IMG/VR virus record: IMGVR_UViG_3300037520_000741
Span: 1 to 26,435 of that record
DNA from: a virus
DNA: 26,435 bases
Reading direction: 5' to 3' (one strand)
Shown here: one piece after another, positions 1,367 to 25,400 of the stretch
Layout of the letters: every line of letters starts with the position of its first letter
Position numbering within the stretch: the stretch's first letter is position 1
Program-made: the position numbers and the translations under genes
Notes under the pieces: generated by a model
The model's input: the letters and a program-made list of their open reading frames with translations, nothing else
Database searches by the model: none
What the model was told of the DNA's origin: nothing

Positions 1367-1389
1367 TAACGACCGTTATGTAGTGACCG
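1367..1389 (+). promoter_or_regulatory. Repeat element copy 1 (GACC centre)
   Basis: TAACGACCGTTA (1367-1378) inside the longer inverted repeat CATAACG-AC-CGTTATG (1365-1380), then five bases and TGACCG. The upstream TGACCA arm is absent. It lies 114 bases upstream of the leftward gene's start, so it could act on that operon. Confidence 0.7.
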
Positions 1390-1420
1390 GCTTTTTGACC
1401 AGATTTGGTGCTCACGCAGG

Positions 1421-1511
1421 ATGATAGTAACCAAGGGAAGGTAAGTGGTTAGGCAGCTAGTGGTAAAGACATCTGGTGACGAATGATAGTAACCAAGGGA
1501 AGGTAAGTGGT
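1421..1511 (+). repeat. 29-base perfect direct repeat, two copies 62 bases apart
   Basis: The 29 bases at 1421-1449 recur exactly at 1483-1511; each begins ATGATAGTAACCAAGGG. Each copy holds the same seven-codon reading frame (MIVTKGR, then TAA), but neither has a convincing ribosome site beyond AGG before the first. The second copy runs straight into repeat element copy 2. They look like binding sites or remnants of a duplicated leader. Confidence 0.8.
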
Positions 1512-1530
1512 CAGCACCTAACGACCGTTA
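1508..1530 (+). promoter_or_regulatory. Repeat element copy 2 (GACC centre)
   Basis: TAACGACCGTTA at 1519-1530, preceded by GCACC as in copies 3 and 4. The hexamer before that is TGGTCA, the reverse complement of the usual TGACCA. There is no downstream TGACCA and no gene follows directly, so this copy is not simply a translation leader. Confidence 0.7.
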
Positions 1531-1559
1531 TGTAGGCGCGGTTTATGGCGTGGTACGTC

Positions 1560-1864
1560 GTTACAATGTTATAAAACTAAATTTGTAATGTTACACGCTA
1601 AGTCATTGATTCGTAATGTGAAAACGGTATTGTTACAATGTTACGTCAAAAAAGAGGTGTCGGGCTTTTTCGTGTGCGGTAGAGTAGCAACAAACCTTGG
1701 CACACATTCCGTTATAAAATCCCCAAAAGGTATATATATATGATTTTTCATGTAACATTATAACTTTACCGTCACAGTGCAACAAAGCCCAGTATCCATG
1801 CGGGTTACGATGTGGTACGCAACGTTACAACCCCCATAACATTGCAGAAACATTGTAACGTTAC
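1560..1864. repeat. Iteron cluster (GTTACAATGTTA-like) around an AT-rich core
   Basis: Left of the core the motif reads forward: GTTACAATGTTAT at 1560, the palindromic TGTAATGTTACA at 1584 and GTTACAATGTTAC at 1632. Right of the core it reads mostly reversed: TGTAACATTATAAC at 1751, CATAACATTG at 1835 and CATTGTAACGTTAC at 1851; a partial GTTACAA sits at 1824. Between them, 1731-1747 is an alternating TA run followed by GATTTTT. This inverted layout around easily melted DNA fits an initiator-binding origin. Regulator sites for the divergent operons are the alternative. Confidence 0.6.
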
Positions 1865-1913
1865 CCCCTGAAATTGATCACTTTTTGATCAAAGTTGCGC
1901 TAAGTCATTGATT
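1596..1913 (+). repeat. 16-base direct repeat flanking the iteron region
   Basis: CGCTAAGTCATTGATT occurs at 1596-1611 and again at 1898-1913, 302 bases apart and in the same orientation. The second copy follows a pair of TTGATCA motifs at 1874-1880 and 1885-1891. It is a separate motif from the iteron, so a second protein may bind here. Confidence 0.75.
1757..1785 (-). promoter_or_regulatory. Possible leftward promoter inside the iteron region
   Basis: On the minus strand there is a perfect -10 box TATAAT (1757-1762), 17 bases after TTGTTG (1780-1785), a weak -35. The -10 overlaps the iteron-like TGTAACATTATAAC. If real, it would drive the leftward operon with a leader of about 500 bases. 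The weak -35 and long leader keep confidence low. Confidence 0.3.
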
Positions 1914-1980
1914 AGCAACCTGCTCGGGACTAAATTGCCCTCCTCCGCACCCAAACTGACCACACGTATGCCCACTCCCC

Positions 1981-2010
1981 TTGACATTTACACGAACAAT
2001 GTGGTACAAT
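1981..2010 (+). promoter_or_regulatory. Strong sigma-70-type rightward promoter
   Basis: TTGACA at 1981-1986 and TACAAT at 2005-2010, spaced by 18 bases. Transcription would begin near 2017, giving a leader of about 98 bases. The leader holds a perfect hairpin (AGGAAAA at 2013, TTTTCCT at 2023) and repeat element copy 3. The -10 box is overlapped by GTGGTAC, a motif also present in or near other control sites of this window. Confidence 0.8.
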
Positions 2011-2065
2011 AAAGGAAAACTTTTTTCCTGAGAGAGATCGGAGCTAGACCGTACCAGCAACCCTG

Positions 2066-2099
2066 TGACCAGCACCTAACGACCGTTATGCAGTGACCA
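2066..2099 (+). promoter_or_regulatory. Repeat element copy 3 (full form, GACC centre)
   Basis: Complete architecture: TGACCA, GCACC, TAACGACCGTTA, TGCAG, TGACCA. It lies in the leader of the first rightward gene and is followed directly by the ribosome site and ATG at 2115. Confidence 0.8.
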
Positions 2100-2114
2100 C
2101 CAAGGAGAAACACT

Positions 2115-2318
2115 ATGTATTGCGATTGCACCAACTACATCAACCCAGCCCGCGTTGCGCTCGGGTATCACACATGCCTGACATGCGGTGAGCACGCTGC
2201 CAAAACAAAACGCAGCCACTACACCATAGTGCCTATGCACAAGCAGGGTTACATGGCGTTCACAGGCCAAGATGCCCGAGACGTAGTCAAACAGATCAAC
2301 CCCAAACGTACTTACTAG
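2115..2318 (+). CDS. Small Cys-motif phage protein (67 aa)
   Basis: A 67-residue protein beginning MYCDCTNYINPARVALG. It has a CxC at residues 3-5 and a CLTC (CxxC) at 21-24, followed by a conserved-looking stretch (SHYTIVPMHKQGYM). This is the layout of a short phage zinc-ribbon-like protein in which the CxxC is followed by a basic segment and a H-x-x-YM motif. The general type is common in small early-gene blocks of phages, but no function is known to me. The start has a good ribosome site (AAGGAGAAAC). It is the first gene after the strong promoter at 1981 and is probably expressed early. Confidence 0.75.
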   Translation: MYCDCTNYINPARVALGYHTCLTCGEHAAKTKRSHYTIVPMHKQGYMAFTGQDARDVVKQINPKRTY

Positions 2319-2328
2319 GAGAAACACC

Positions 2329-2577
2329 ATGCGAGCACTGATTGAACTGAACGGCAGAAAGCACATCCTGACAATGAAGCAGGCCGAGGAAGTAATCACC
2401 CTCATCCACAGCTACGGCACTGAGGTGTACGACACCAAGACGAGCTACAGCACCAAACCGTACACGACGCACCACCACGTGTACGAGCTAACACCCACGG
2501 AGATGGGCAAAGGCGAGATCACGTTCCTGACCGATGCCCTGTACGGCATGGGCAAGCTCAACGGCAGACCCGAGTAA
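2329..2577 (+). CDS. Hypothetical phage protein (82 aa)
   Basis: Eighty-two residues, starting MRALIELNGRKHILTMKQAEEV. The N-terminus looks like a short beta-hairpin followed by a helix (TMKQAEEVITLIHSYG). The middle is rich in Thr, Tyr and His. No catalytic motif is seen and I do not recognise the family. A ribosome site (TAGGAGAAACACC) lies directly before the ATG, only ten bases after the previous stop, so the two genes are co-transcribed. Repeat element copy 4 starts two bases after its TAA. Confidence 0.7.
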   Translation: MRALIELNGRKHILTMKQAEEVITLIHSYGTEVYDTKTSYSTKPYTTHHHVYELTPTEMGKGEITFLTDALYGMGKLNGRPE

Positions 2578-2578
2578 C

Positions 2579-2601
2579 TGACCAGCACCTAACGACCGTT
2601 A
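2579..2601 (+). promoter_or_regulatory. Repeat element copy 4 (GACC centre)
   Basis: TGACCA, GCACC, TAACGACCGTTA. Here the ribosome site GGTAGGAGAA replaces the downstream TGACCA arm, and the next ATG follows at 2616. Confidence 0.75.
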
Positions 2602-2615
2602 GGTAGGAGAATGAG

Positions 2616-2795
2616 ATGAACTGCACTATATGCGGAAAACCGATAACCCTTGCACCCAGTGCCAAGGAACGCGCCGACAAGTACGGCGGCAAGCCCAGTG
2701 ACTACACTAAACTGTTTACAGAGCACAGTAGCTGTGCGCTCGACAAGCGGGAACGGGAAACACTGGAGCTAATGCAGCGAGTCAACAACCGATAA
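2616..2795 (+). CDS. Small zinc-finger-like protein (59 aa)
   Basis: This 59-residue gene begins MNCTICGKPITLAPSAKERA. A CxxC at residues 3-6 and a His and Cys (HSSC) near residues 39-42 together could hold one zinc ion. Between them is a short basic segment, and the C-terminal 17 residues look helical. This resembles small phage zinc-binding proteins, but there is no recognisable function. The start is set by TAGGAGAATGAG just upstream; the earlier ATG at 2611 runs into a stop after one codon. It is followed 28 bases later by the AAA+ ATPase gene and is probably in the same transcript. Confidence 0.7.
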   Translation: MNCTICGKPITLAPSAKERADKYGGKPSDYTKLFTEHSSCALDKRERETLELMQRVNNR

Positions 2796-2823
2796 ACACA
2801 ACCAAACCAACTGGAGATATACC

Positions 2824-3888
2824 ATGCAAGTACAAATGAAGACCAAACTGAACCACAAGCAGATCACTGACCTGATCGTAGCCAACCCCAAGGTGCGATT
2901 CTACGTAACTGGCGAGCCGGGTATCGGCAAGTCTGCGCTTATCAAGATGATCCGTGAGCGAACCGGATACGACACGGCATACGTGGATGTGCCAACCCTA
3001 GACCTAGGTGACGTTGCCATGCCAGTCGTGGATCACGAGTCCAGAACGACACGCTATTACCCAAACGCACGGTTCAAGCTGCATCTGGGTAAGCCCGTAG
3101 TCATTATGCTGGACGAGTGGACGAAGGGTTCCACACCAGTGAAGAACATGACGCACCCCATGTTCGAAGTAGACAACCCACGACTGGGTGATGTGCCAGT
3201 ACCCGCAGGCAGCATAGTGTTTCTCACTGGCAACCTGACAACGGACGGTGTGGGCGACTCCATGCAAGCACACAGTAGACAGCGGGTCACGGAGGTGGAG
3301 TTGATGAAGCCCGATGCCGAGTACTGGCTGGAGAACTTTGCTGTGCCTAACGGCATAAATCCAATCGTGTGTGCGTGGGTAGACCGCCATCCCTATTGCT
3401 TGGCCTCATATACAGACGAGGGACAAGAAGGCAACGAGCTCATATTCAACCCACGTGTGCCGCAAGGTGCGGTGGTATCGCCGCGTACGCTGGAGAAGTT
3501 ATCCGGCATCGTGACTAACCGCGAGCACTACGACACAGACTCACTGCTTGCCGCAATGCAGGGCACAGTGGGGTACAGCGCAGCGGAGAGCGTCATGGCG
3601 TTCATTCGGCATCAGGACTCACTGCCCAGCTACAAGTCCATAATTGACAACCCAGAGACAGCCCAAGTGCCGCAGGATCAGGGAGCCATAGCCGTCCTCA
3701 GCTACGGCCTGCTGGAGAAGGTGGAGCGAGCCACGCTGACAGCCATCATGCGATACCTCGAGCGCATAGACCTCGAGTGGCAGTCACTGTTCTGTGTGAA
3801 TCTGGCACGGCACAAGACCAAGAATAACTTTGCGTTCGAGAACGGTGCGTTCGCTAAGTGGTGCGCGACTAACCAAGACATACTTTAA
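2824..3888 (+). CDS. MoxR-like AAA+ ATPase (354 aa)
   Basis: AAA+ ATPase of the MoxR/AAA_5 type. Visible motifs are Walker A GEPGIGKS (residues 30-37), Walker B VVIMLDE (92-98), a sensor-1 Asn in FLTGN (about 137) and a likely arginine-finger region HSRQR (about 150-154). These ATPases usually act as ring-shaped chaperones that remodel a target together with a VWA-domain partner, as in the RavA-ViaA pair. The gene two places downstream (4346) encodes just such a VWA protein with a peptidase motif, so they probably work together; the partnership is inferred. The C-terminal 150 residues look helical and have no family I can name. Ribosome site GGAGATATACC. Repeat element copy 5 follows its stop directly. 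Confidence 0.85.
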   Translation: MQVQMKTKLNHKQITDLIVANPKVRFYVTGEPGIGKSALIKMIRERTGYDTAYVDVPTLDLGDVAMPVVDHESRTTRYYPNARFKLHLGKPVVIMLDEWTKGSTPVKNMTHPMFEVDNPRLGDVPVPAGSIVFLTGNLTTDGVGDSMQAHSRQRVTEVELMKPDAEYWLENFAVPNGINPIVCAWVDRHPYCLASYTDEGQEGNELIFNPRVPQGAVVSPRTLEKLSGIVTNREHYDTDSLLAAMQGTVGYSAAESVMAFIRHQDSLPSYKSIIDNPETAQVPQDQGAIAVLSYGLLEKVERATLTAIMRYLERIDLEWQSLFCVNLARHKTKNNFAFENGAFAKWCATNQDIL

Positions 3889-3889
3889 T

Positions 3890-3912
3890 TGACAACAGGC
3901 TAACAATTGTTA
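3890..3912 (+). promoter_or_regulatory. Repeat element copy 5 (AATT centre)
   Basis: TGACAA (one change from TGACCA), CAGGC, TAACAATTGTTA. The palindrome extends to CTAACAATTGTTAG. The ribosome site GGTAGGAGAA follows, as in copy 4. TTGACA at 3889 looks like a -35 box but has no good -10 partner. Confidence 0.75.
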
Positions 3913-3926
3913 GGTAGGAGAACGAG

Positions 3927-4298
3927 ATGGGATACAGAAGCGACGTAGAGATTTTGTTTTACCCAGAAAAGCCGGAGGACTTTGCCATGCTTAAGCTGTA
4001 TGTGGACGAGAACCTGCCGGACAAGTTCGAGGTGGGTGACATGACGTGCAACCGTTGGCCGCAGGGTAACAAGTACCTGCACATACGCATGGAGAGTGTT
4101 AAGTGGTATCCCTCGTACGAGGATGTAGTTGTGTACACGGAGTGTTTCGGTAACTGGGCGACTATGTTCGGCTCCACGCCAAGGTTCCACTACGAGTTCG
4201 TCAGGTTGGGGGAGGATGACAACGACATCGAGACCGACTACAGCGAGAACGCGGAGTTCGCAATGCGAGCCGAGCGCAGTATAGCTATAAACTTTTAA
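3927..4298 (+). CDS. Phage protein of unknown function, MGYRSDV-type (123 aa)
   Basis: Starts MGYRSDVEILFYPEKPEDF, an N-terminus I associate with a family of small phage proteins of unknown function. It is rich in aromatic residues (WPQGNKYLHIRME, VKWYPSYEDV) and probably forms a small alpha/beta fold. The last third is acidic. No catalytic motif is visible. The start has a strong ribosome site (TAGGAGAACGAG). It lies between the MoxR-like ATPase and its likely VWA partner, with a copy of the repeat element on each side, so each of these three genes has its own element. Confidence 0.7.
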   Translation: MGYRSDVEILFYPEKPEDFAMLKLYVDENLPDKFEVGDMTCNRWPQGNKYLHIRMESVKWYPSYEDVVVYTECFGNWATMFGSTPRFHYEFVRLGEDDNDIETDYSENAEFAMRAERSIAINF

Positions 4299-4299
4299 C

Positions 4300-4333
4300 T
4301 GACCAGCACATAACAATTGTTATGCAATGACCA
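4300..4333 (+). promoter_or_regulatory. Repeat element copy 6 (full form, AATT centre)
   Basis: TGACCA, GCACA, TAACAATTGTTA, TGCAA, TGACCA. With its flanks the palindrome is CATAACAATTGTTATG. It lies one base after the previous stop codon and just before the ribosome site of the peptidase/VWA gene. Confidence 0.8.
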
Positions 4334-4345
4334 CGGAGAAGCACC

Positions 4346-5575
4346 ATGGATAACGTAAGACGGTTCAAGAAGATCAAGATATCTTTGATGCGTAGCCCTA
4401 TGTTCGTAGGACTAAGCGGCATCATGATGATGGGAAGGACGGAGATAACGTCGGACGTACCGACTGCGTGTACTAACGGCAGGGACGAGTGGTACAACCC
4501 CGAGTTTGTGTTCAAGTTCGGAGACAAAGGCACTGGGTTCGTCATCATCCACGAGAACATGCACAAGGCAGGCAGGCACTTGCAGATATACACCAAGCTG
4601 CACGCCATAGACCCAGACCTGACTAACAGGGCGTGTGACTACTGGATCAACGCAAGAATCAAAGCGTGTGACCCCAGAGAGACGCTGGTTGCGATGCCCA
4701 CCGATGAGAACGGCAAGGTGGTGGGGCTGTACGACCCCAAGTATGACGGCTGGACGGTGCTCCAGATATTCAAAGACCTGCAGGAGAAGCAGCAACAGCA
4801 GCAACAGCAACAGGGCGGCGAGGGTGGCGAGGGTGGCGAGGGTGGCGAGGGTGGCGGCGATGGGGAAGGGTTCGATGACCACGACTGGGAAGGTGCGAGC
4901 AAGCTGACCGAGGAGGAGACCAAGAGGCTGGAGCAGGACGTGAAGCAGGCGATACGCCAAGGGCAGATGGCTGCTAAGAAGATGGGTGCGGGCAGTGCGG
5001 GTGATCTGCTGGGGCTGGGTGAACTACTCAAGAGCCGCGTGGACTGGAAGGCGCAGCTGCGTGAGTTCATGACATCCACGTGCACCGACAAGCAGGAGAG
5101 CTCATGGCGTAGACCCAACAGGCGATACCTGCACCAAGACATCATTATGCCTACGCTCATAGGTGAGTCGATGAACGAGGTGGTGTTCGCACGTGACGCA
5201 TCGGGGTCTATGCTGTGTCGTAACCGCTTGGTGAAGGCAACGAGCGAGATGGTTGCGCTGGCGAGGGCGCTACGCATAGAGAAGATACACCTGATCGACT
5301 GGGATGGCGAAGTGGGGCGGCACTTGCAGTTCACTGCGGAGACATTCGAGGGAGCGCCAGAAGTAGAGAGCGTGAAGGGTGGTGGCGGCACTGATCCTAG
5401 GTGCGTAGCTACATACCTGCAAGACAAGCGCATCAAGCCTAACGCGGTGGTGATATTCACCGATGGCGAGGTGCCAAGCTGGGGTACGTGGGAGGTGCCG
5501 GTGTTGTGGCTGATCGCTAACAAGCAGGCAATAACCGCAGGCGTAGGCAAGACCATAAACGTGGATGACGAGTGA
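4346..5575 (+). CDS. Metallopeptidase-like / VWA-domain protein, DUF2201 type
   Basis: Two-domain protein of about 409 residues resembling the predicted metal-dependent peptidases of the DUF2201 family. The N-terminal domain holds HENMH (about residues 69-73), a fit to the HExxH zinc-protease signature, followed by a helix (KAGRHLQIYTKLH). A linker of poly-Gln then Gly-Gly-Glu repeats (about 149-176) joins it to a C-terminal von Willebrand A domain with the MIDAS residues DASGS (about 284-288), a Thr in GGGGTDP (near 349) and TDGE (near 372). Such proteins pair with MoxR-type ATPases like the one at 2824. Leader CGGAGAAGCACC supports the start. Its TGA stop is also the first TGA of repeat element copy 7. 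The substrate is unknown. Confidence 0.8.
   Translation: MDNVRRFKKIKISLMRSPMFVGLSGIMMMGRTEITSDVPTACTNGRDEWYNPEFVFKFGDKGTGFVIIHENMHKAGRHLQIYTKLHAIDPDLTNRACDYWINARIKACDPRETLVAMPTDENGKVVGLYDPKYDGWTVLQIFKDLQEKQQQQQQQQGGEGGEGGEGGEGGGDGEGFDDHDWEGASKLTEEETKRLEQDVKQAIRQGQMAAKKMGAGSAGDLLGLGELLKSRVDWKAQLREFMTSTCTDKQESSWRRPNRRYLHQDIIMPTLIGESMNEVVFARDASGSMLCRNRLVKATSEMVALARALRIEKIHLIDWDGEVGRHLQFTAETFEGAPEVESVKGGGGTDPRCVATYLQDKRIKPNAVVIFTDGEVPSWGTWEVPVLWLIANKQAITAGVGKTINVDDE
4791..4860 (+). repeat. In-frame CAG/CAA and GGCGAGGGT tandem repeats
   Basis: About eight Gln codons (mixed CAG and CAA) are followed by four tandem copies of the 9-base unit GGCGAGGGT, encoding Gly-Glu-Gly. They form the linker between the peptidase-like and VWA domains. 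Unit number could change by strand slippage without breaking the frame. Confidence 0.85.
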
Positions 5576-5606
5576 CCACAACATAACGACCGTTAGCTAA
5601 TGACCA
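5573..5606 (+). promoter_or_regulatory. Repeat element copy 7 (full form, GACC centre)
   Basis: TGACCA, CAACA, TAACGACCGTTA, GCTAA, TGACCA. The first TGA is the stop codon of the peptidase/VWA gene, and the last arm runs into the ribosome site AAGGAGTAAC of the HTH gene. Confidence 0.8.
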
Positions 5607-5619
5607 AGGAGTAACAACC

Positions 5620-5889
5620 ATGAAAGCAAAACTGATACTGAATGCTGATACCCGAGAGGCAATATTTCTAGACATGATCCACGAGCTATGGAAGTACTCA
5701 GATGAGGGGCTGCGGGATATCGCAGAGCAGGCAGGTTGCCACTGGGTCACGCTATACGCTTGGAAGTCAGGCAAGACCATGGCACCACGTATCGACAAGC
5801 TGGCACCTGTTGCCAGAGTACTGGGCTACAACATAGTCCTTCAGAAAACCAAACAACCTGTACCTAAGCACTTAAGGAGTGTGAAATGA
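5620..5889 (+). CDS. Small helix-turn-helix protein, Cro/C1-like (89 aa)
   Basis: Residues about 25-68 fit a Cro/C1-type HTH: a helix with LRDIAEQAG, a turn, a recognition helix (HWVTLYAWKSG) and PRIDKLAPVARVLG as the following helices. The N-terminal 20 residues may help dimerise, and the C-terminus is basic. It is probably a sequence-specific DNA-binding regulator of the phage. It is a candidate for binding the repeat element, one copy of which sits just upstream of its own start and would allow autoregulation; this is inference. The start follows AAGGAGTAACAACC. Its TGA overlaps the next ATG (ATGA). Confidence 0.75.
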   Translation: MKAKLILNADTREAIFLDMIHELWKYSDEGLRDIAEQAGCHWVTLYAWKSGKTMAPRIDKLAPVARVLGYNIVLQKTKQPVPKHLRSVK

Positions 5890-6332
5890 AACACAAACAC
5901 GCAGACAAGATGGCGGCGTACGCACAAGATGCACTAAATACGGACACACCTTGGGAGTTGTGGGAGGCTCGCGCCCCTCGCAAGCATGACTGGTTTGCGA
6001 TGAAGGGTCATCACCCGTGCTGGAGTGTAGATTTTGAGTACCGACGCAAGCCTCAAGAGCACACAGTCACGCTCAACACCGAGCAGATCAAAGAAATCCT
6101 CATGGCTTGCGAGTACCCGAGCTGGGAGAACGAGGACTTTAAATCTGGTGTGCTAGCGTTGGAAGCTGCGCTGGGTATACCGACAAAGACCAACGCTCAG
6201 ATAGCCTGCGACATGCTGGGACAAGCGCACAAAGCACTGGAAGAGCACTCAGCAGAAATCTGCGAGCCGAACGTAGACCACATCCAGCTGCTGGTGTGGG
6301 GCGCAATGAAATTACTGGAGCAACAAGCATGA
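5886..6332 (+). CDS. Phage protein with PWELWE-type N-terminal domain (148 aa)
   Basis: The first 55 residues contain DTPWELWEARAP, a Trp-Phe segment and FEYRRKP. This arrangement of a PW-LW motif, a central aromatic patch and a YRRKP end recurs in short domains of many phage proteins and has no known function. The rest is helical (NTEQIKEILMACE; NAQIACDMLGQAHKALEEH) and may oligomerise. The start overlaps the HTH gene stop by four bases, with the ribosome site AAGGAGTG inside the preceding gene, so the two are translationally coupled. It overlaps the next gene in the same way. Confidence 0.7.
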   Translation: MKHKHADKMAAYAQDALNTDTPWELWEARAPRKHDWFAMKGHHPCWSVDFEYRRKPQEHTVTLNTEQIKEILMACEYPSWENEDFKSGVLALEAALGIPTKTNAQIACDMLGQAHKALEEHSAEICEPNVDHIQLLVWGAMKLLEQQA

Positions 6333-6583
6333 ACAAAGAACGTGCGAACAAGAGTATACAAAAGCTGGCGGTGAAACTGATCCAGCCCATCAATGAGTAC
6401 ATGAGCCTCAATGATGGTGACGAAGAAGTGGCGAAGATGGCCGTTGTTCTGTCCGCTATCACTAGGATGATGGCGGGGGCGGTCATAGCACTAGGAATGC
6501 CGGAGGAAGTTGCGCAGGAGGCGCTCAAGCTGGAGATGCAGTTAGTACTGGAAGCAATGGCAGAAGACGAAACCAAACACTGA
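6329..6583 (+). CDS. Small helical phage protein (84 aa)
   Basis: I place the start at 6329, where ATG overlaps the previous stop (ATGA), rather than at 6296 inside the previous gene; that longer frame lacks a ribosome site. The product begins MNKERANKSIQKLAVKL and is nearly all helix. It has a moderately hydrophobic middle (MAVVLSAITRMMAGAVIALG) that may be a buried helix rather than a membrane span, and an acidic C-terminus. No family is recognised. Its TGA is the first TGA of repeat element copy 8. Confidence 0.65.
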   Translation: MNKERANKSIQKLAVKLIQPINEYMSLNDGDEEVAKMAVVLSAITRMMAGAVIALGMPEEVAQEALKLEMQLVLEAMAEDETKH

Positions 6584-6614
6584 CCACAGCATAACAATTG
6601 TTAGCTAATGACCA
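6581..6614 (+). promoter_or_regulatory. Repeat element copy 8 (full form, AATT centre)
   Basis: TGACCA, CAGCA, TAACAATTGTTA, GCTAA, TGACCA. The first TGA is the stop codon of the 84-aa gene. The second arm leads into AAGGAGAAAC and the ATG at 6627. Its downstream half matches copy 7 over GTTAGCTAATGACCAAGGAG, which suggests copying or strong constraint. Confidence 0.8.
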
Positions 6615-6626
6615 AGGAGAAACGCT

Positions 6627-7466
6627 ATGTCTTTTTCACAGTTCACTGATATGCCCAGCCTCGGCAATTACAAGCGAGCACTGGATCACTACAACTCAAT
6701 CACTCCGATACGGGGTAGGACAGAAGATGTAAGACCGCTGTGCAACACAACAACGGGCAGACGCAAGACGCACCTCCGCATACTACCCACTACCTACGAC
6801 GGGCTTGCGGCCATGGCGTGCAGACTATACGACACGGACGTGGTGATCTACGTGAGCGATGGGCGGGTGGTGATCGACAACGACTACCCAAGCCTGAGCA
6901 CTAACTCGTTTGCCAACGCACTAACACCACACGGTATGGTGCTGGGGCAGCGTTATAGCGAGACGTGGGTGTGGTGTAAGGATCAGGCGTACTGGCTGCC
7001 GGTACGAGCGAAGCTGGAGATGAAGCAGTACGACAACGGTATAGGCTGGTATCCGGTGGAGCCGCACACGTTTTACAAGCACGTGGCTAATCGCAAGGTG
7101 CTGAGTGCATTCACCAAGCAGTACAAGCCGTTCGGGGATCACTGCATGAATATACTTAAGCTCCTAGGTGCAAACGTTGAGGAGAACAAAGAGTACGTAC
7201 GCACACCAGATGCACAGGTGCTGCGTGATGCGAGTCGTGAGGGATGGGGCGAGGCGACTAAGTACTTCTTGCGCCATGCGGAAGTTACTACGTGGACATA
7301 TGGGTACAAGAGCCGGATCACTAAGCTTGTGCCAGCCAAGCTGAAGAAGGCGCTCCTCGACTATGTAAAGGTAGAGCACAACGAGGAGATTTTTGAGAAG
7401 GAAGCTGCGCCCATAGGCGTGGCGATCAACGACATTAACTGTAAGTACATAGGAGCAAGTAACTAA
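6627..7466 (+). CDS. Hypothetical phage protein (279 aa)
   Basis: I do not recognise this 279-residue protein. It starts MSFSQFTDMPSLGNYKRALDHYN and alternates predicted strands and helices, with a segment rich in Tyr and Trp (SETWVWCKDQAYWLPV; YDNGIGWYPVEPHTFYKHV) and a mostly helical C-terminal third. There are no visible nuclease, NTPase or HTH motifs. The start has a strong ribosome site (AAGGAGAAACGC) straight after repeat element copy 8. Its TAA overlaps the next ATG by one base (TAATG), so it is coupled to the 79-aa gene. A size near 280 aa and the position suggest a co-expressed early protein. Confidence 0.7.
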   Translation: MSFSQFTDMPSLGNYKRALDHYNSITPIRGRTEDVRPLCNTTTGRRKTHLRILPTTYDGLAAMACRLYDTDVVIYVSDGRVVIDNDYPSLSTNSFANALTPHGMVLGQRYSETWVWCKDQAYWLPVRAKLEMKQYDNGIGWYPVEPHTFYKHVANRKVLSAFTKQYKPFGDHCMNILKLLGANVEENKEYVRTPDAQVLRDASREGWGEATKYFLRHAEVTTWTYGYKSRITKLVPAKLKKALLDYVKVEHNEEIFEKEAAPIGVAINDINCKYIGASN

Positions 7467-7705
7467 TGATAATCAAACAAGATGGTACGCCGCTGGACTT
7501 GGATGACGTGTTCGAGGTGGAGGGTGTTAAGTACACGGTGCATGACATCGCGGGCAACACCGTGATCGCGTGGGGTAAGGACAACAGCAAGCTGCGCAAA
7601 CGGTTCCAAGCCGATGCTATAGGTATGACCGCAGATGAAGCGTCAACGGACAGATCGAAAGTTGTGCTGGCTCGCGTAAAGCTGCGCGACTACTGGGAGA
7701 ACTAA
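7466..7705 (+). CDS. Hypothetical phage protein (79 aa)
   Basis: A 79-residue protein starting MIIKQDGTPLDLDDVFEVEGVKYTVHDIAGNTVIAWG. The first half reads as a small beta-barrel-like fold of alternating strands and turns, as in SH3-like phage proteins. The second half is charged and includes a helical segment (KLRKRFQADAIGM). No motif gives a function. It overlaps both the gene before it and the gene after it by one base (TAATG at each end), so the three genes probably depend on re-initiating ribosomes. Confidence 0.65.
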   Translation: MIIKQDGTPLDLDDVFEVEGVKYTVHDIAGNTVIAWGKDNSKLRKRFQADAIGMTADEASTDRSKVVLARVKLRDYWEN

Positions 7706-7833
7706 TGCTGCGATACAAGCCAAGCAAGCACGTGCCGGTACGGGTGCGGCTGCCCAAGGGTATTGACATTCGTACCACAAAAGTATATAATGGTAGATGT
7801 AAAAGTAACAAACCAACTAAACAAACTAACTGA
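7705..7833 (+). CDS. Very small basic protein (42 aa) spanning a promoter
   Basis: ATG overlaps the previous stop (TAATG), and the frame runs 42 codons to the TGA that starts repeat element copy 9. The product begins MLRYKPSKHVPVRVRLPKG and is strongly basic, with many Lys and Arg and no acidic patch. The coupling at its start and the placement of its stop exactly in the element, as for the genes at 4346, 6329 and 9659, support it as a real gene. A strong promoter lies inside its second half. It may be a small nucleic-acid-binding peptide, or a leader frame that lets ribosomes run up to the element. Confidence 0.5.
   Translation: MLRYKPSKHVPVRVRLPKGIDIRTTKVYNGRCKSNKPTKQTN
7763..7791 (+). promoter_or_regulatory. 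Strong sigma-70-type promoter inside the 42-aa gene
   Basis: TTGACA at 7763-7768 and TATAAT at 7786-7791 with the optimal 17-base spacer: a consensus promoter. Transcription would begin near 7798, about 80 bases before the ATG at 7878, with repeat element copy 9 in the leader. The spacer holds GTACCAC (7772-7778), the inverse of the GTGGTAC that overlaps the -10 at 1981. Confidence 0.85.
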
Positions 7834-7864
7834 CCATCCCCTAACAATTGTTAGGGGGTAACCA
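7831..7864 (+). promoter_or_regulatory. Repeat element copy 9 with 20-base perfect palindrome
   Basis: TGACCA, TCCCC, TAACAATTGTTA, GGGGG, TAACCA. The arms extend to CCCCTAACAATTGTTAGGGG (7838-7857), a perfect palindrome and the longest among the ten copies. In RNA it could fold into a strong hairpin just upstream of the ribosome site at 7866. Confidence 0.85.
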
Positions 7865-7877
7865 CTGGAGAAGCATC

Positions 7878-8765
7878 ATGGGTATTTCAAACTCAGCAGT
7901 ATTGGTACAGCTCAGCATCAGCACGTGGGGTACTGAGCGACTCGACCGAGGGCAAAGCGACCGCATCAACGCGATCAACAACGCCGACTCAAAGGCTGGC
8001 AAGGTGCACAAAGACTTGATGTGCGGCACGTCACTGGCGAAGGACATCGAGTTGTACGTGGCGAAGTGCAGGCTGTTCAACAACGAGCAGACACTGCCGT
8101 GGCAAGACCGAGGGACAAGGCTGCTACCGACCAGTATGTTCATGCAGTACAAGGCCGACATGAACAAGCGAGAAACTAAATTCAACGCGATGGTAAACAA
8201 GTTCGTGCCTAATTTTGAAGCGGCTAAGCAGACTGCACGTAACTACCTAGGTGCTATGTTCAACGAAGCAGACTACCCACGGGCTGAGGACGTAGCGAGT
8301 AAGTACCGATGGTCTCTGGTGATTAGCCCGATACCGGAGTCAGGGCACTTCTGCATTGACGTGCCAGCTAAGGAGCTAGCTGAAGTGAGGCTGTCATGCG
8401 ACTCAGATGTGGAGCGCAAGCTGGCCGAGGCGATGCGTAAACCGTGGGAAGACCTGCACAGTATGCTGCGCAGCATGAGCGAGAGGCTCGAGGAGGTTGA
8501 GATACCCACGGAGCGTGACGAGAACGGGGTACTGATAAAGCCTAAGTATCGGCGGTTCCACGATTCGTTTGTATCCAACGCGATACAGCTGTGCGACCTG
8601 CTCAAGCACATGAACGTGACGGGTGACCCCAAGCTCGAGGAGGCGCGGCGCAGGGTTGAGATAGCAGTTAGGGGCGTAGACGTTGAGGACGTTAAAGAGT
8701 CGGTGATCGTGCGCTCTCAGGTTAAGTCCAAGCTCGACAGCATACTGGGGCAGTTCGATTGGTAA
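7878..8765 (+). CDS. DUF3150-like phage protein (295 aa)
   Basis: I start at the ATG at 7878, preceded by CTGGAGAAGCATC, because the longer TTG start at 7848 lies inside the palindrome. The N-terminus (VQLSISTWGTERLDRGQSDRI) and the middle, a long helical part followed by RWSLVISPIPESGHF, resemble DUF3150 proteins in layout; I recognise this by general pattern only. Such proteins often occur near MoxR-type ATPases and VWA proteins, as here (2824 and 4346), and their function is unknown. The C-terminal half is mainly charged helices that may form coiled coils (MRSMSERLEEVE). It has its own consensus promoter at 7763. Confidence 0.6.
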   Translation: MGISNSAVLVQLSISTWGTERLDRGQSDRINAINNADSKAGKVHKDLMCGTSLAKDIELYVAKCRLFNNEQTLPWQDRGTRLLPTSMFMQYKADMNKRETKFNAMVNKFVPNFEAAKQTARNYLGAMFNEADYPRAEDVASKYRWSLVISPIPESGHFCIDVPAKELAEVRLSCDSDVERKLAEAMRKPWEDLHSMLRSMSERLEEVEIPTERDENGVLIKPKYRRFHDSFVSNAIQLCDLLKHMNVTGDPKLEEARRRVEIAVRGVDVEDVKESVIVRSQVKSKLDSILGQFDW

Positions 8766-8774
8766 GGGGCGCAC

Positions 8775-9662
8775 ATGAAAATAAAACTAGGTAAGGTGAG
8801 TAACATGAAACGAGTACCGTATTCGGAAGTAGCTAAAGAACTAGGCAGTAAACTGGTATGGATCAAAGAGATACCCAAAGCGTACGAGCACCTCACGAGT
8901 AACGACGTGTATTTTGATGGGCTGTTGGCGGAGTTCCTTTTGAAGATGCACGACAAGCACCCTAAGTTTGTGTTCCAGCCACGGTGGATTATGTACGCAG
9001 ACTCCGAGAGTCCGTCAATTATCCACACGAACGTGTCGTGTGACAAGGTAGTTCTGGGTGATGTGGAGGTGTACGCAGGCACGTTCACGATGAGGAGCGA
9101 CCGGATAATCAGGGATAAGCCGAGGTCAGGCCGCGTACAAACCTCGGACATCAAGCGGGCAGGGAGGGAGTTCACTAAGTACTTCAAGCCGGAGAGCGCA
9201 GCTGAGGTGTTAGCGACGCGGGCAGGCGAGGCTAGGCGTGCAGTTTACAACGCCGTGGATACAGCAAGGGGCAAGCGCAAGCTGGCGTTGAACCTAGTTG
9301 ACTCGTACCTGCTTCAGCACATCATGGACAACCTCGACACGTACGGGGTTATAGCTAAGAGCTACGGTGCAACGGACGCTATGCTGGACGCGGCTAAGCT
9401 TGGGTACGAGGAGTGGTCTGTGATCGACAGCGCGGTTGGCGATAAGTTCGATGGGTACATTGTGCACATCAAGGACGGGCTGTACATGGTAGGCAGGCGA
9501 CACAGAGAAAAGGCGTGCGATGTGTATGAGGCTAAGGACTTACCTGCTTACATCAACGACAAGCTCGGCCAGCTCAAGTTGGTGCAGGACAACACGTACA
9601 TACGCAACGTGGGGCTGCGTGTGGACGACAACACATTCTATGTAAGAGGGGAACTGTTATGA
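8775..9662 (+). CDS. Hypothetical phage protein (295 aa)
   Basis: I do not recognise this protein. It begins MKIKLGKVSNMKRVPYSEVAKELG. The N-terminal 120 residues mix strands and aromatic residues. The middle is a positively charged helical region (ATRAGEARRAVYNAVDTARGKRKLALNL). The C-terminus returns to a strand-rich part (DGYIVHIKDGLYMVGRR). The start at 8775 has AAGGGGCGCAC before it; the ATG at 8805 is an alternative. Nine bases separate it from the DUF3150-like gene, and its TGA overlaps the next ATG, so it is likely the middle gene of a three-gene unit driven by the promoter at 7763. Confidence 0.65.
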   Translation: MKIKLGKVSNMKRVPYSEVAKELGSKLVWIKEIPKAYEHLTSNDVYFDGLLAEFLLKMHDKHPKFVFQPRWIMYADSESPSIIHTNVSCDKVVLGDVEVYAGTFTMRSDRIIRDKPRSGRVQTSDIKRAGREFTKYFKPESAAEVLATRAGEARRAVYNAVDTARGKRKLALNLVDSYLLQHIMDNLDTYGVIAKSYGATDAMLDAAKLGYEEWSVIDSAVGDKFDGYIVHIKDGLYMVGRRHREKACDVYEAKDLPAYINDKLGQLKLVQDNTYIRNVGLRVDDNTFYVRGELL

Positions 9663-9832
9663 GTAAAACGCGTAAGGAAGCTATGGTGCACGTGAACGTG
9701 AGGCTACCGGTGGAGGTGCTGGACTACTTCATGCAGTACAACAACTACACGAAGGCGATACGTGCGGCGCTTGAGCAGCATGTGGCACAGGCTACGGAAG
9801 TAGACGCAAGCCCCGAGACGGACAACCCCTGA
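9659..9832 (+). CDS. Ribbon-helix-helix DNA-binding protein (57 aa)
   Basis: The 57-residue product starts MSKTRKEAMVHVNVRLPVEV. It shows the compact ribbon-helix-helix pattern: a short strand (VHVNVRLP, about residues 10-17), a helix (VEVLDYFMQY), a turn with Asn-Asn-Tyr-Thr, and a second helix (KAIRAALEQHVAQ). Such Arc/CopG-type proteins bind short inverted repeats as paired dimers and are usually repressors. Its TGA is the first TGA of repeat element copy 10, and it closes the block that carries all ten elements. This makes it a good candidate for the protein that reads them, though nothing in the sequence proves it. It overlaps the previous gene by four bases (ATGA). Confidence 0.7.
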   Translation: MSKTRKEAMVHVNVRLPVEVLDYFMQYNNYTKAIRAALEQHVAQATEVDASPETDNP

Positions 9833-9863
9833 CCACAGGATAACAATTGTTAGGTAGTAACCA
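9830..9863 (+). promoter_or_regulatory. Repeat element copy 10 (AATT centre), last copy
   Basis: TGACCA, CAGGA, TAACAATTGTTA, GGTAG, TAACCA. It lies between the ribbon-helix-helix gene and the terminator at 9873. No gene follows before the terminator, so this copy cannot be a translation leader. It may act on transcription or on the 3' end of the message. Confidence 0.75.
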
Positions 9864-18230: not shown

Positions 18231-19152
18231 AGACGTATCCATTTTTAACAACCAGTCACAAGTGATTGCCTCTACCGGTCGTAGGGCAAGTGCTCTCGGT
18301 CAACAACTGGCCTCGTCAGCTAAGGTGTTCACTCGCCGCATTCAGACCAGCAACAAGGGCATTTTCCGCAAGATCATCAACGGCGAGCAGGTGGGTGACC
18401 CGATCCGTGACTCGTTCAACGCAATCATCGTGGGTATGCTCACCGAAGTGAGCCGAGTGTACTACGAAGACAAGTACGACCCTAACAAGGAGGCCACTGC
18501 ACCAAACTGCTGGTCTAATCAGGGCGACAAGCCCGAGGCAGACGTTAGCGACCCACAGCACTCCAACTGCGCTGACTGCCCGCAGAACATAAAGGGCTCC
18601 GGTGACAACGGCGGTAAAGCGTGTCGATACCAGCGCCGCGTTGCCATACTGCTTGAGGGTGACACCTCGGGAGACGTGTACCAGTTTAGTATCCCGGCAA
18701 AGTCTTTGTTTGGTAAAGGCTCTGGTAATGTGCATCCATTCGAGAGCTACTTCAAGTACCTCTTTATGAATCGTGAAGCGCCCGATACGGTGGTAACGAC
18801 TATAAGCTACGACATTAACGCCGATGGTATGGAGTTGCTGTTCTCCCCTACCCGGCAGCTTACTGATGCCGAGCTTGATCTTGTTGAGTTTGCACAGGCT
18901 AACCCAGAAACACAGCGGTACACTCGCATCACGGTTGCTCAAGCTGACGGCGTAACAAAGCTGCCACCCAAGGTTGAGGCGAAGAAAGAAGCAGCGAAGC
19001 CCGCACCGAAGGTTACCCGCTCAGAAGAACCGGATGACGACGAGCCGATGCCCGAGCCTGTAAAGCGCACAAAGGCGCGTGAAGAGCCAGAAGCTGAAGC
19101 AGTCTCCGATAAACTGGCTTCCGTAATCAGCGAATGGGGCGGGGTCAGCTAA
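18223..19152 (+). CDS. Probable ssDNA-binding protein with Cys4 site and charged tail (309 aa)
   Basis: The start at ATG 18223 is chosen over the GTG directly before it, since TAGGAGATA is better spaced. The N-terminal 90 residues are mixed. About residues 97-138 hold four cysteines (NCWSN, NCADCPQN, ACRYQ), a likely zinc or Fe-S site. The middle is strand-rich, with YQFSIPAKSLFGKGSG and ISYDINADGMELLFSP. The last 65 residues are a disordered tail of Pro, Lys and Glu with an acidic patch (EPDDDEPMPEP). This architecture and its position before the primase-helicase fit a phage single-strand binding protein, but the tail does not end in the usual DDDxPF tip, so the call is tentative. Confidence 0.55.
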   Translation: MSKDVSIFNNQSQVIASTGRRASALGQQLASSAKVFTRRIQTSNKGIFRKIINGEQVGDPIRDSFNAIIVGMLTEVSRVYYEDKYDPNKEATAPNCWSNQGDKPEADVSDPQHSNCADCPQNIKGSGDNGGKACRYQRRVAILLEGDTSGDVYQFSIPAKSLFGKGSGNVHPFESYFKYLFMNREAPDTVVTTISYDINADGMELLFSPTRQLTDAELDLVEFAQANPETQRYTRITVAQADGVTKLPPKVEAKKEAAKPAPKVTRSEEPDDDEPMPEPVKRTKAREEPEAEAVSDKLASVISEWGGVS

Positions 19153-19382
19153 TGAGCGTAGGATACTCATTGAGAATAGTTGAGCTCAATAGGTCCGCAG
19201 GCGAAGAACTACTAGGCGTAAAGTTGGGCAGGGTGTGCATACGTAACAATATGCCCGTTTCTGTGCTAGCTGCACGCCTAGGAGTCAGTCGGCAGACGGT
19301 GTACAACTGGTTTGTTGGCGCATCAAAACCCAGTCTAAACACAAAAATTAAAATAGAAGCCCTACTGACTACGCTGCGGTAA
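19152..19382 (+). CDS. Cro/C1-type helix-turn-helix protein (76 aa)
   Basis: I start at the ATG at 19152, which overlaps the previous stop (TAATG); the longer frame from 19134 lies inside that gene. The product starts MSVGYSLRIVELNRSAGEELLG. The HTH lies at about residues 25-58: VCIRNNMPVSVLAARLGVSRQTVYNWFVG, with a TVYNW recognition helix typical of Cro/C1 repressors. A basic helix follows. As a small repressor-like protein within a replication operon it could regulate the divergent origin/promoter region or its own operon. It is unlike the HTH protein at 5620 outside the motif. Confidence 0.8.
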   Translation: MSVGYSLRIVELNRSAGEELLGVKLGRVCIRNNMPVSVLAARLGVSRQTVYNWFVGASKPSLNTKIKIEALLTTLR

Positions 19383-22447: not shown

Positions 22448-25400
22448 TTACTGCGCTTCTTCCGGTGGGTTAGTGACGGCTCTGGATGGCATAATTATTC
22501 TGTTTAAGTACGGAGCTACGGCGTCGCCTAGGTACAAGCCCTCATCCGTTATGCCGTCCCGTCGCAGCCTCTCTCCGAGTGAAGACATCAGATCATCCGT
22601 GGTTATGCCGTCAAAGAAGTTTTTGTAGTTGTACCTACGGACTTCCTGCAGTGCGTCGTCAAACTTGTTGCCGGCAACTATGGCTTGTCTGCTCTCCGGG
22701 CCGTACTCGTCAACAGCAGCATTTCTCTCTTTGAACGCTTTCTCGAAGCTGTCATACACCGCTACTTTTTCGGCTTTTATCTCGTCAATTAGCTTACGTG
22801 CAGCGAACGTCGATACTTGGCTTTCAGCTACTTCCGCAGAGCCAAAGCCCAAAGCCTGCCCCACTACCTTCCACCCGGTGTAGTACTCCTCTGGCTTAAG
22901 TACGTCCCCAGCGCGTGTCACGTTGCCGTCAGTAGCAAACCGCATAGCTTCCAGAGGCTCTCGTAGGAACGCAGGTGCCATCATCTCGAACCCCCTGAGT
23001 ATCTCCCCCTCATTAACCATGGTTTCGTAACCCTTGAGGAAATTGCGAGCTAAACTGGCACTTGGTCCGAACATAGTGTCGAACGCTAAGTTGACTGCCG
23101 TGTCCTCTAAACTATTGTCCTGCCGGCCGTAGCTGTTGTAGATCAAACCATCCAGAGACATAGACGATTGCACGTTCCAGTCAGTGAGTGCAGATGGAAC
23201 TCCCAGCTCAACGCCACGCTGCAGCTGCTGAGCTTGCTCCGGAGTAAGCCCCATAAAGTTAGCCAAGCTTGAGCCCGGGCCGAAGTACTTATCCAGCAGG
23301 TGATTCCTAAAGTACAGGTCTATGCTGCGCAGCCCCAGCGGGTTGCCAGCGTCATCTATGTCGTAGTACAGGTCAGCGTCTTCGTCGTCCAAATCGGGGC
23401 GTAGAGCCTCACGCAGCCCGTCAATCAACGCAACCATAGCGGTGTAGCCGAACATGCCAGTCACGCCGCCAAAAAACAGCCCCATGCCAATGGTGTCCCA
23501 GAACATAACCGCGGCTTCTTTCTTCTCTGCCTTGGTCAGCCCCGATGCAGCAAACGCTTTGTAGAAGTTAGTTACTATGTGGGCAAGCGCCTGCACGCGG
23601 TAAGTCATGAACTGATAGCCCATACGACCGTACCATGTCTTCGCAAACAAAGGTTTGTTAAGGGCACTATAGTCAAACATCAGGGTTTTGGTAAGCTCTA
23701 TGGCTTGCTCCGTCGCTGCTTCAATTGCAGCATCTCCTTTTTTGCCCTGTGCTAATTGTTTTTCGTAGGCCAGCTCAAAGGCAGACATGAAGAACACTTC
23801 ACGGGAAACGCGTTCCGCGTGGTGTATTGGAGCGGATACAAAGTTGAGACCGGCCTGTGCCCCCTTGCTTATTGAAGTCCCACCGCCAGCTTGGCGAAGC
23901 TCAGACTCCAGTGCATCCGCAGAGCCAGCAAGATCAGAGGCCCTAGTGTCAATGAACAAGTTGCGCACGTCCGCTACGTCGTACGCTTTTTGAAGCGCGT
24001 CTTTTATAGGGCTCTCGGTCACGTACTTGGAGTTACGCATCGCCGCTTCGCCCTTCTCATCGACCACATTACCGGCCTCGTCGAGCTCCGTACGGCTTAA
24101 CGCCCTAGCAGTTAGGAAGTTACCCATATACTTGGCAGCCATAGCCGCCGACTTGCCCGCACCGAATTTAGCGTGCAGCCCACCAAACCCAAACATAATT
24201 AACTGCGTGGGCTGAATGATTGCTGATCGCATAGAAGTGAGCATAAACAGGAACGACGCTTTGGTGCCCAGCCGAGAAGCGGCATCTGCTTTCTCTTCCA
24301 TAGAACCCATGCTCGGTGGACTAAGTGTTACGGTAGCGCGTTCCGCCAAAATATCTATAATTGCTGTTTTTTCCCTTATGTTTTTATCGGTAGCAGGGAT
24401 ACCCTTTAGCGACTCTTTACCCGCAGCTATTTCGTTGCGTATTTGGTTGCCGTACTTAAGCCTTGCCAGCTGATTAACGAGCGTTGATTGGTTAATCGCA
24501 AACGACCGAAGAGCATCCTCTTCAAAACCAAGCACGCCTTTGCGGTTGACCACAGACTTACGTGCAGCCCCGGATGGCAGTGTCTGCAGGTACAGTTGGT
24601 ATATGCTGTCTTTTAGGTCTTGCGCAGCGTCAGGTACGCCGGACTTCACTTTGTCTATACGCGCAAATAAGTCTGTTACTCTGGTGCTATCGTTGAGCAG
24701 CAGATCGCGCATTGTCCCTGCTCTGTCTTCTTGATCCACTCGGGTTAGTAGATCAGTCGGGTACTGAAGCTCGTACTCGCGTATAAAGTCTTCGCGCTTA
24801 CCATCAGTCTCAAACGACTTGTAAAACACACGCTTACCGGCAGAGTCCGTGACATTTAAGGCAAACCGGCCGGGGCGCGACAGGGGCGAGTACACTTTGA
24901 GTTTTAGCATCTCGGTGTAGTCCGCGACTATGTTAGCCATCAAAGCGCCTTTGTCCGACGAAGGGTCCGCCTCGGTGCCGGGTATCGCAGCATCTTTTCG
25001 TATGGTGTCTAGCAACAAAGTCACCGCTTCCTTTACATCTGCCCGGTACTTGTCCTGCACACGTGCGTAGAGGTCCAGTGCACCTTGCCCGTTAGGCGTA
25101 GCTTTTAACGCCGCAACGCGTTGAAATAACTCAGTTATGCTTTGGACCCTATCCGCTAATTCCTTTTTAGCTATGGTTAGCGCAGCTTTTTCTTCCCGGG
25201 TTCTGTTTTGCAATGGTATGCGGTCTATAGAACTGATGGTAAAACGAAGGTCACTTACTTCTGCGTCATTATCTATTGAGTTTTTCACGGACAAGAAAGT
25301 CTTGCTGTCCACGTCGTACACGACGATATTGAACAGCGTGCTGTCGTTAAACAAATCCGTAAGCGGTTTAGCGTTAGCTGGATTTTTAGCTATGTACGCT

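Follow-up and report, generated by a model that had tools for sequence, protein, structure and literature searches.

The genes for a MoxR-like ATPase (P0001), a zincin/VWA protein (P0003) and a DUF3150-like protein (P0004), all encoded in a 26,435-nt stretch of freshwater phage DNA (hereafter the window), are a real unit that recurs in phages and on conjugative plasmids. We put the chances at about even that their products form a three-component, ATP-driven intracellular protein-remodelling machine consisting of a MoxR ring, a VWA-zincin subunit and the DUF3150 protein. The catalytic and metal-binding motifs of the trio are all intact, and they are kept in remote homologues. Two things are new here, a DUF3150 partner that is near-obligate and the distribution on plasmids; the constant link of the MoxR-VWA pair to a DUF3150 gene appears to be unreported, whereas the motor-gripper pair itself is already known from other phages. 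The three gene calls of a preliminary description of this DNA were borne out (Table 1), and only the start of the DUF3150-like gene was moved, from TTG at 7848 in the ORF listing to a plausible ATG at 7878 that follows GGAG.

Table 1 Positions of the three genes and associated features in the window
Feature	Position	Strand	Remark
82-aa protein	2329..2577	+	Accessory; between VWA and DUF3150 genes in close relatives
Palindrome copy TAACGACCGTTA	2590..2601		Upstream of 59-aa ORF 2616-2795 and MoxR gene
MoxR/midasin-clade AAA+ ATPase P0001, 354 aa	2824..3888	+	ATG start; phrog_1297, family profile
Palindrome copy TAACAATTGTTA	3901..3912		Between MoxR gene and ORF 3927
123-aa protein	3927..4298	+	Here between MoxR and VWA genes
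Palindrome copy TAACAATTGTTA	4311..4322		~24 nt 5' of VWA start codon
N-terminal zincin-like + C-terminal VWA protein P0003, 409 aa	4346..5575	+	DUF2201 architecture
HENMH codons, residues 69-73, putative zinc site	4550..4564	+	Translation; invariant in alignments
Gln/Gly/Glu-rich low-complexity linker between peptidase-like and VWA halves	4790..4866	+	27-nt direct repeats; low pLDDT
Palindrome copy TAACAATTGTTA	7842..7853		~24 nt 5' of DUF3150 start codon
DUF3150-like third component P0004, 295 aa	7878..8765	+	tblastn, fold match

The linkage of the three genes was evaluated from both ends in phage and plasmid loci with adequate flank. MoxR and VWA genes lay on the same strand within ~5 kb in 36/36 DUF3150-anchored loci, and MoxR and DUF3150 genes were likewise nearby in 32/32 VWA-anchored loci; the trio was present in the outgroups L009 and MinM2 too. 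The co-occurrence in other phages, on which the preliminary description had let its reading depend, was thus found in every locus counted, and together with the conservation of the zincin, MIDAS and AAA+ motifs in very divergent homologues, it upholds the functional association of the three genes. The small genes were not obligate across loci and were rejected as obligate fourth members: in 71/145 loci the VWA and DUF3150 genes flank a homologue of the 82-aa protein, and a homologue of the 123-aa protein adjoins the DUF3150 gene in some relatives (L003, L004, L006 and L008).

The trio is also carried by Burkholderiales plasmids, of which three were inspected and typed as conjugative by MOB-suite. 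On pBVIE02, the ATPase, DUF3150-like and VWA genes occur in that order near virB4-like genes, and further trios were found on Cupriavidus and Simplicispira plasmids. The numbers of DUF3150-like and VWA records were equal in each of the main genera (Burkholderia 13, Cupriavidus 8, Paraburkholderia 8, Variovorax 4 and Caballeronia 4). The plasmid operon resembles the phage locus in having all three components, contiguous, but it is deeply diverged, has the order MoxR, DUF3150, VWA and belongs to a plasmid rather than a phage.

P0001 matched phrog_1297 ('ATPase') at 1.6e-45, and it carries Walker A (GEPGIGKS, residues 30-37) and Walker B (VVIMLDE, ending at E98) motifs. When P0001 and P0003 were searched against the PDB as single sequences, only spurious matches came up; profiles performed better. 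The best PDB match of the ATPase family profile was midasin (6e-27), followed by Clp AAA+ proteins, CbbQ (2e-4) and NorQ (3e-4), so that its profile neighbours are MoxR/midasin-type AAA+ proteins; AAA_5 was detected in 19/25 family members. Across 25 divergent homologues, those of N4 and the plasmids included, G33, G35, K36, D97, N137, R154 and R221 were invariant. The motifs of the MoxR clade are thereby conserved, namely G33/K36 of Walker A, D97-E98 of Walker B, N137 of sensor-1 and R154, which is probably the arginine finger. Since midasin, Clp unfoldases, CbbQ and NorQ are the best solved relatives, the profile points to a remodelling ATPase. Midasin and CbbQ/NorQ act with a VWA/MIDAS partner.

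Both halves of P0003 scored above the Pfam cut-offs, as DUF2201_N (7e-31; 108.2 vs 23.2 bits) and as DUF2201 VWA-like (1e-10; 42.2 vs 26.4 bits). The PHROG label 'HNH endonuclease' for this protein was rejected, as it is a DUF2201 protein. Its AlphaFold model has a pLDDT of 83, falling below 50 at residues 161-175 of the linker. HExxH is part of the helix formed by residues 59-76, and D98xxxN102 of that formed by residues 90-108; among 13 divergent and 47 closer homologues, H69, E70, H73, H78, D98 and N102 of the zincin site and D284, S286, S288, T349 and D373 of the MIDAS were invariant, at identities down to ~20%. D98 is the putative third metal ligand. The VWA domain aligned with that of CLCA1 (Z 12.2, rmsd 3.1 over 134 residues). 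The family profile matched MJ1213 weakly (0.022) in the zincin-like domain, for which there is no solved structure. The fusion of a VWA domain with a metallopeptidase, implied to be novel in the preliminary description, turned out to be the normal DUF2201 architecture; it is that of N4 gp25 and has been published for jumbo phages (PMC7824862).

The third protein is called only 'DUF3150-like' because PF11348 (DUF3150) gave no above-cutoff match. Neither P0004 nor its phage family matched this Pfam model, a PF11348 search of seven records, the window included, returned nothing, and one plasmid homologue gave a weak match below the cut-off (0.0015; 18.3 vs 24.9 bits). The name rests on this plasmid match, on tblastn matches of P0004 to a MinM2 protein annotated 'DUF3150' (2e-18), and on the fold: the P0004 model (pLDDT 87) found the phage DUF3150 protein A0A6J7WV52 as its best BFVD match (E 3e-19, TM 0.85). 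In tblastn, Burkholderiales plasmid proteins matched at up to 4e-29. A possible weak match to the DUF3150 fold was seen in Mycobacterium phage Dylan (E 2.4e-3). A PDB fold search with the model gave no match at E <= 0.001, and Z (VIA) reached at most 8.5, with common helical bundles only; thus no function was assigned from the fold. When 84,980 bacterial and archaeal species were scanned with the DUF3150-like alignment, no confirmed relative emerged, but this is not evidence of absence because the peptide patterns were too specific; plasmid homologues do exist.

The palindrome TAACNNNNGTTA occurs in 10 copies, against 0.5 expected. The suggestion that each gene of the trio has its own copy held for the VWA and DUF3150 genes and failed for the MoxR gene, which comes second after the 59-aa ORF. 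In the relatives L001, L007 and L100, all three genes have their own palindrome ~25 nt before the ATG, and in L001 and L007, one leader variant of the repeat is common to these three genes alone. This exclusive variant suggests that the trio is jointly regulated. The phage also encodes HTH proteins (5620-5889 and 19134-19382) that are candidates for binding the palindrome, which may be either an operator or an RNA hairpin. The 17-bp palindromes of cluster O mycobacteriophages, the cluster K SAS/ESAS and the L5-type stoperators are likewise short elements in many copies, often at gene starts (PMC4351075, PMC3203893), but here the palindrome arm varies between related genomes and is mostly uniform within each.

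A chaperone/peptidase reading of the trio is reasonable. We infer that the MoxR-like subunit would assemble as an AAA+ ring bound by the VWA domain, whose Mg-MIDAS site would grip a carboxylate-bearing client peptide. The client would be pulled on or reshaped by ATP hydrolysis, and the fused zincin domain, on its flexible linker, would then clip it. The DUF3150-like protein would be a dedicated client or client adaptor, because its gene practically never occurs apart from the other two; the protein could instead be a third machine part. The machine would be made with early/middle DNA-metabolism genes. Its most likely target would be a complex for DNA processing or transcription, or one derived from the host, that phages and conjugative plasmids have in common, although the plasmid homologue could have changed its role.

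To our knowledge, midasin, RavA-ViaA, CbbQ-CbbO, NorQ-NorD and the tail MoxR-VWA pair of ATV have no fused metallopeptidase and no DUF3150. They resemble the present system in joining a MoxR-clade AAA+ ATPase to a MIDAS/VWA partner (PMC7159879). Iyer et al. 2021 (PMC7824862) describe, in jumbo phages, a MoxR partner with a vWA protein that has an N-terminal metallopeptidase; this two-protein architecture is identical, but those phages are much larger and no third DUF3150 component is noted in the passage on them. Phage N4, whose DUF2201 protein gp25 is an N4-like core gene, has an adjacent AAA+ ATPase and DUF2201_N/DUF2201 VWA protein with the same residues (gp24-gp25, Schitoviridae core; phrog_1297/phrog_1314). 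It differs in its identity of 20-26% and in that no DUF3150-like gene was found in the N4 record, nor in four other pair-only records. The VWA and MoxR trees gave no support for the trio carriers as one clade, and thus N4-type pairs may differ in role.

A role of the pair as an assembly chaperone with a processing peptidase, in which it would fold, assemble or clip the proteins of the virion, seems rather unlikely. This role is proposed in PMC7824862 for the same pair in jumbo phages, and it has an analogy in the tail machinery of Acidianus two-tailed virus. Giant polyvalent virion-type proteins (~1,800-2,900 aa frame), which might need such help, were found in 11/13 large trio phage contigs. 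However, no match to the polyvalent protein of the window was found in the trio plasmids or N4, and these proteins may be only a lineage marker. In the window, a fragment whose replication genes resemble those of other phages such as Rhizobium phage RHph_TM3_14A, the trio sits in the replication block on the same strand as polA, a PD-(D/E)XK nuclease, an SNF2 helicase and a primase, and the polyvalent gene is on the opposite strand. N4 gp24/25 are middle genes, and their homologues were absent among 13 virion proteins identified by MS in RPP1/RLP1 (PMC4193335). The evidence on virions comes from two N4-like phages, both without DUF3150. The plasmid distribution, the middle-gene timing and this absence weaken the virion-complex target and favour a remodelling/proteolysis machine that works inside the cell over one for virion assembly.

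We regard as unlikely a counter-defence or host-takeover protease, in which the machine would take apart a defence complex or a polymerase complex of the host. The trio is shared by phages and conjugative plasmids, which meet the same defences, and the N4 pair is expressed at a suitable, middle time; however, the genes keep a strongly conserved order and the pair belongs to the core of N4-like phages, unlike most counter-defence genes, which are patchy, and PADLOC gave no defence-system match or related signal. The zinc site of P0003 could be structural rather than catalytic, as in a remodelling machine without proteolysis. The weakness of the nearest solved match is in keeping with this, peptidase activity being predicted from sequence, but Glu70, a catalytic residue that zinc binding does not require, is shared without exception by the homologues aligned, and we consider this reading improbable. 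A CobS/CobT-like chelatase or cofactor-insertion system is very improbable: the MoxR+VWA pairing recalls chelatases and P0003 weakly matched a cobaltochelatase model (0.002) and, by profile, Mg-chelatase BchD (0.0056), but these matches cover nothing beyond the VWA/linker region. The N-terminal domain of the protein is zincin-like, the scanned proteins of the window included no recognisable large catalytic subunit of a chelatase, and CobS/CobT identity was rejected at 16.6 bits against a TIGR02442 cut-off of 779.

Returning to the intracellular remodelling machine, we tentatively suggest that it may be an undescribed mobile-element machine, common to phages and conjugative plasmids, that remodels and cleaves one intracellular target, such as a DNA-transfer, replication or host-surveillance complex. 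N4 gp24 and gp25 belong to the core of an entire phage family but have no known function; linking them with a third gene that is obligate, and with the trio on plasmids, narrows the likely function to something common to phages and plasmids. This function is testable with the pair in N4 on E. coli K-12 and with the trio on a Burkholderiales conjugative plasmid. Should the trio indeed be a remodeller-protease, its client would uncover an as yet undescribed step in phage infection or in conjugation.

All three genes that the preliminary description had named exist in the window, an IMG/VR virus record of 26.4 kb. The other plus-strand genes belong to DNA metabolism (a family-A DNA polymerase, a PD-(D/E)XK exonuclease, a SNF2 helicase and a primase/helicase), and these, together with a giant DarB-like polyvalent protein, identify the genome as that of a phage and not as cellular. 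A relative of the polyvalent protein, in frames of ~1,800-2,900 aa, was found in 11 of the 13 large phage contigs with the trio that were tested.

Positions, strands and basis of the genes discussed in the text
Feature	Position	Strand	Basis
MoxR-like ATPase P0001	2824-3888	+	ORF/translation of window
HExxH/VWA protein P0003	4346-5575	+	DUF2201_N + DUF2201
DUF3150-like protein P0004	7878-8765	+	ATG at 7878 is the likely start
Giant DarB-like/LPD39 polyvalent protein, C-terminal part (1307-aa ORF truncated by the window end)	22448-26435	-	

Scanning for the DUF3150-like gene yielded 463 confirmed viral contigs, and 80 of them were kept. The proposal that the three genes form a functional trio was borne out by their co-occurrence: the ATPase and VWA genes lay on the same strand in 36/36 DUF3150-anchored loci (all those with at least 4.5 kb on each side), with ATPase first, then VWA and DUF3150 as the usual order, and 32/32 VWA-anchored loci flanked by 4 kb or more on either side had the other two genes, although the effective n of both counts is smaller because overlapping pieces of a single contig account for some of the loci and because the loci were picked for their similarity to the window. 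The linkage extended to a distant locus, L009 (25-35% identity), to Synechococcus phage MinM2 and to Burkholderiales plasmids, in whose main genera the record counts of the DUF3150-like and VWA proteins were equal; the three plasmids inspected were typed conjugative. The DUF3150-like gene was not detected with the ATPase-VWA pair of N4, phCDa, SCTP-2, RHph_TM3_14A or an Acinetobacter plasmid. Since the trio carriers did not form one clade in the trees, losses or gains of the third gene occurred repeatedly. On the 75-kb Acinetobacter baumannii plasmid pRBH2-3, which resembles an N4-like phage-plasmid, genes for a toprim protein and for a small DNA-directed RNA polymerase lie close to the pair.

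P0001 matched phrog_1297 (1.6e-45) and, weakly, Pfam AAA. A profile of 25 P0001 relatives ranked midasin first among solved structures (6e-27), followed by Clp unfoldases, CbbQ and NorQ, which places P0001 close to MoxR and midasin. The residues invariant among the relatives, and kept even in N4 gp24 and the plasmid copies at ~20% identity, include Walker A Lys36, Walker B Asp97, sensor-1 Asn137, Arg154 and Arg221.

Judged by its sequence, P0003 is a textbook DUF2201 protein, with DUF2201_N ('putative metallopeptidase', 7e-31) and DUF2201 ('VWA-like', 1e-10). H69, E70, H73, H78, D98 and N102, as well as MIDAS residues D284, S286, S288, T349 and D373, were invariant in 13 homologues (at least 23% identity) and 47 closer ones. 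The AlphaFold model (pLDDT 83) puts HExxH on helix 59-76 and D98xxxN102 on helix 90-108, as expected for a gluzincin-like site, in which D98 would be the third zinc ligand. A weak profile match (0.022) to MJ1213, a minigluzincin, also points in a gluzincin-like direction for the N-terminal half, and the VWA half matched VWA domains of solved structures (Z 12.2, rmsd 3.1 over 134 residues). The label 'HNH endonuclease', which P0003/N4 gp25 carries in PHROG 1314 and in numerous RefSeq phage records ('homing endonuclease' in others), has no support in the domain content and looks like a propagated misannotation on phrog_1314 proteins.

The VWA-metallopeptidase fusion, which the preliminary description took to be unusual, is not new. 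N4 gp25 has the same fusion as P0003, and jumbo phages carry it next to a MoxR partner (PMC7824862). Both gp24 and gp25 of N4 belong to the 14-gene core of N4-like phages (PMC4193335).

Pfam gave no match for P0004, which shares 26% identity with a phage protein annotated as DUF3150 and 25-28% with plasmid proteins, one of which had a sub-threshold PF11348 match. Its model (pLDDT 87) matched a DUF3150-annotated phage protein (TM 0.85), and a fold search against solved structures returned no match. 'DUF3150-like' is the right strength of claim. No mention of DUF3150 was found in the literature searched.

The palindrome TAACNNNNGTTA occurs in 10 copies in the window against 0.5 expected. In the related loci L001 and L007, every gene of the trio has a copy ahead of its start, and a variant leader (GTTAGATGGAG in L001, GTTAGCTAATGGAG in L007) is confined to these three copies; elsewhere in the same contig almost every copy has GTTAGG. 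These observations support joint regulation of the module, which may work through an operator or a hairpin. At the same positions L100 has a wholly different palindrome, CGTACGG...CCGTACG. Gene order differs between window 2329-9662 and L001 1721-8298 with break points at repeat copies, as if the palindromes delimit exchangeable cassettes. Most relatives (among L001, L007, L017, L024, L100, L102, L110, L112, L116, L145 and the MinM2 locus L019) have a recurrent short palindrome of their own, as the window does at 1367-9852, with up to 21 copies per 11-21 kb locus (shuffled maximum 2) and 18 copies in 39 kb in L019 (shuffled maximum 8). The arms (TAAC..GTTA, CGTACGG..CCGTACG, AGATATCT, TAGTGAC..GTCACTA, GGTTCA..TGAACC) are mostly uniform inside each genome and change between related genomes; copies are intergenic in close relatives, and many are intragenic in distant ones. 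The last copy (window 9841; L001 8471; L007 13779) follows the block's final gene and immediately precedes a terminator-like, GC-rich inverted repeat.

Going by the protein families, a MoxR-type ring would hydrolyse ATP, the VWA partner would use its metal site to grip a client peptide, as in the general MoxR-VWA model (PMC7159879), and the fused zincin domain would cut the client. The DUF3150-like protein is probably an adaptor or a client, because it was not found without the ATPase-VWA pair. The literature searched yielded no experiment on any member. A virion-only role would agree with the assembly function proposed for the jumbo-phage fusion and its MoxR partner (PMC7824862), but the trio occurs on plasmids, the module is located in the replication block of the window, and N4 gp24/25 are middle genes without a homologue among the 13 RPP1/RLP1 virion proteins (PMC4193335). 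An intracellular target, which we would hold at about even probability, is therefore preferred. The trio is real, conserved and partly known; what is new is the obligate third component, the distribution shared between phages and plasmids, and the module-specific leaders.
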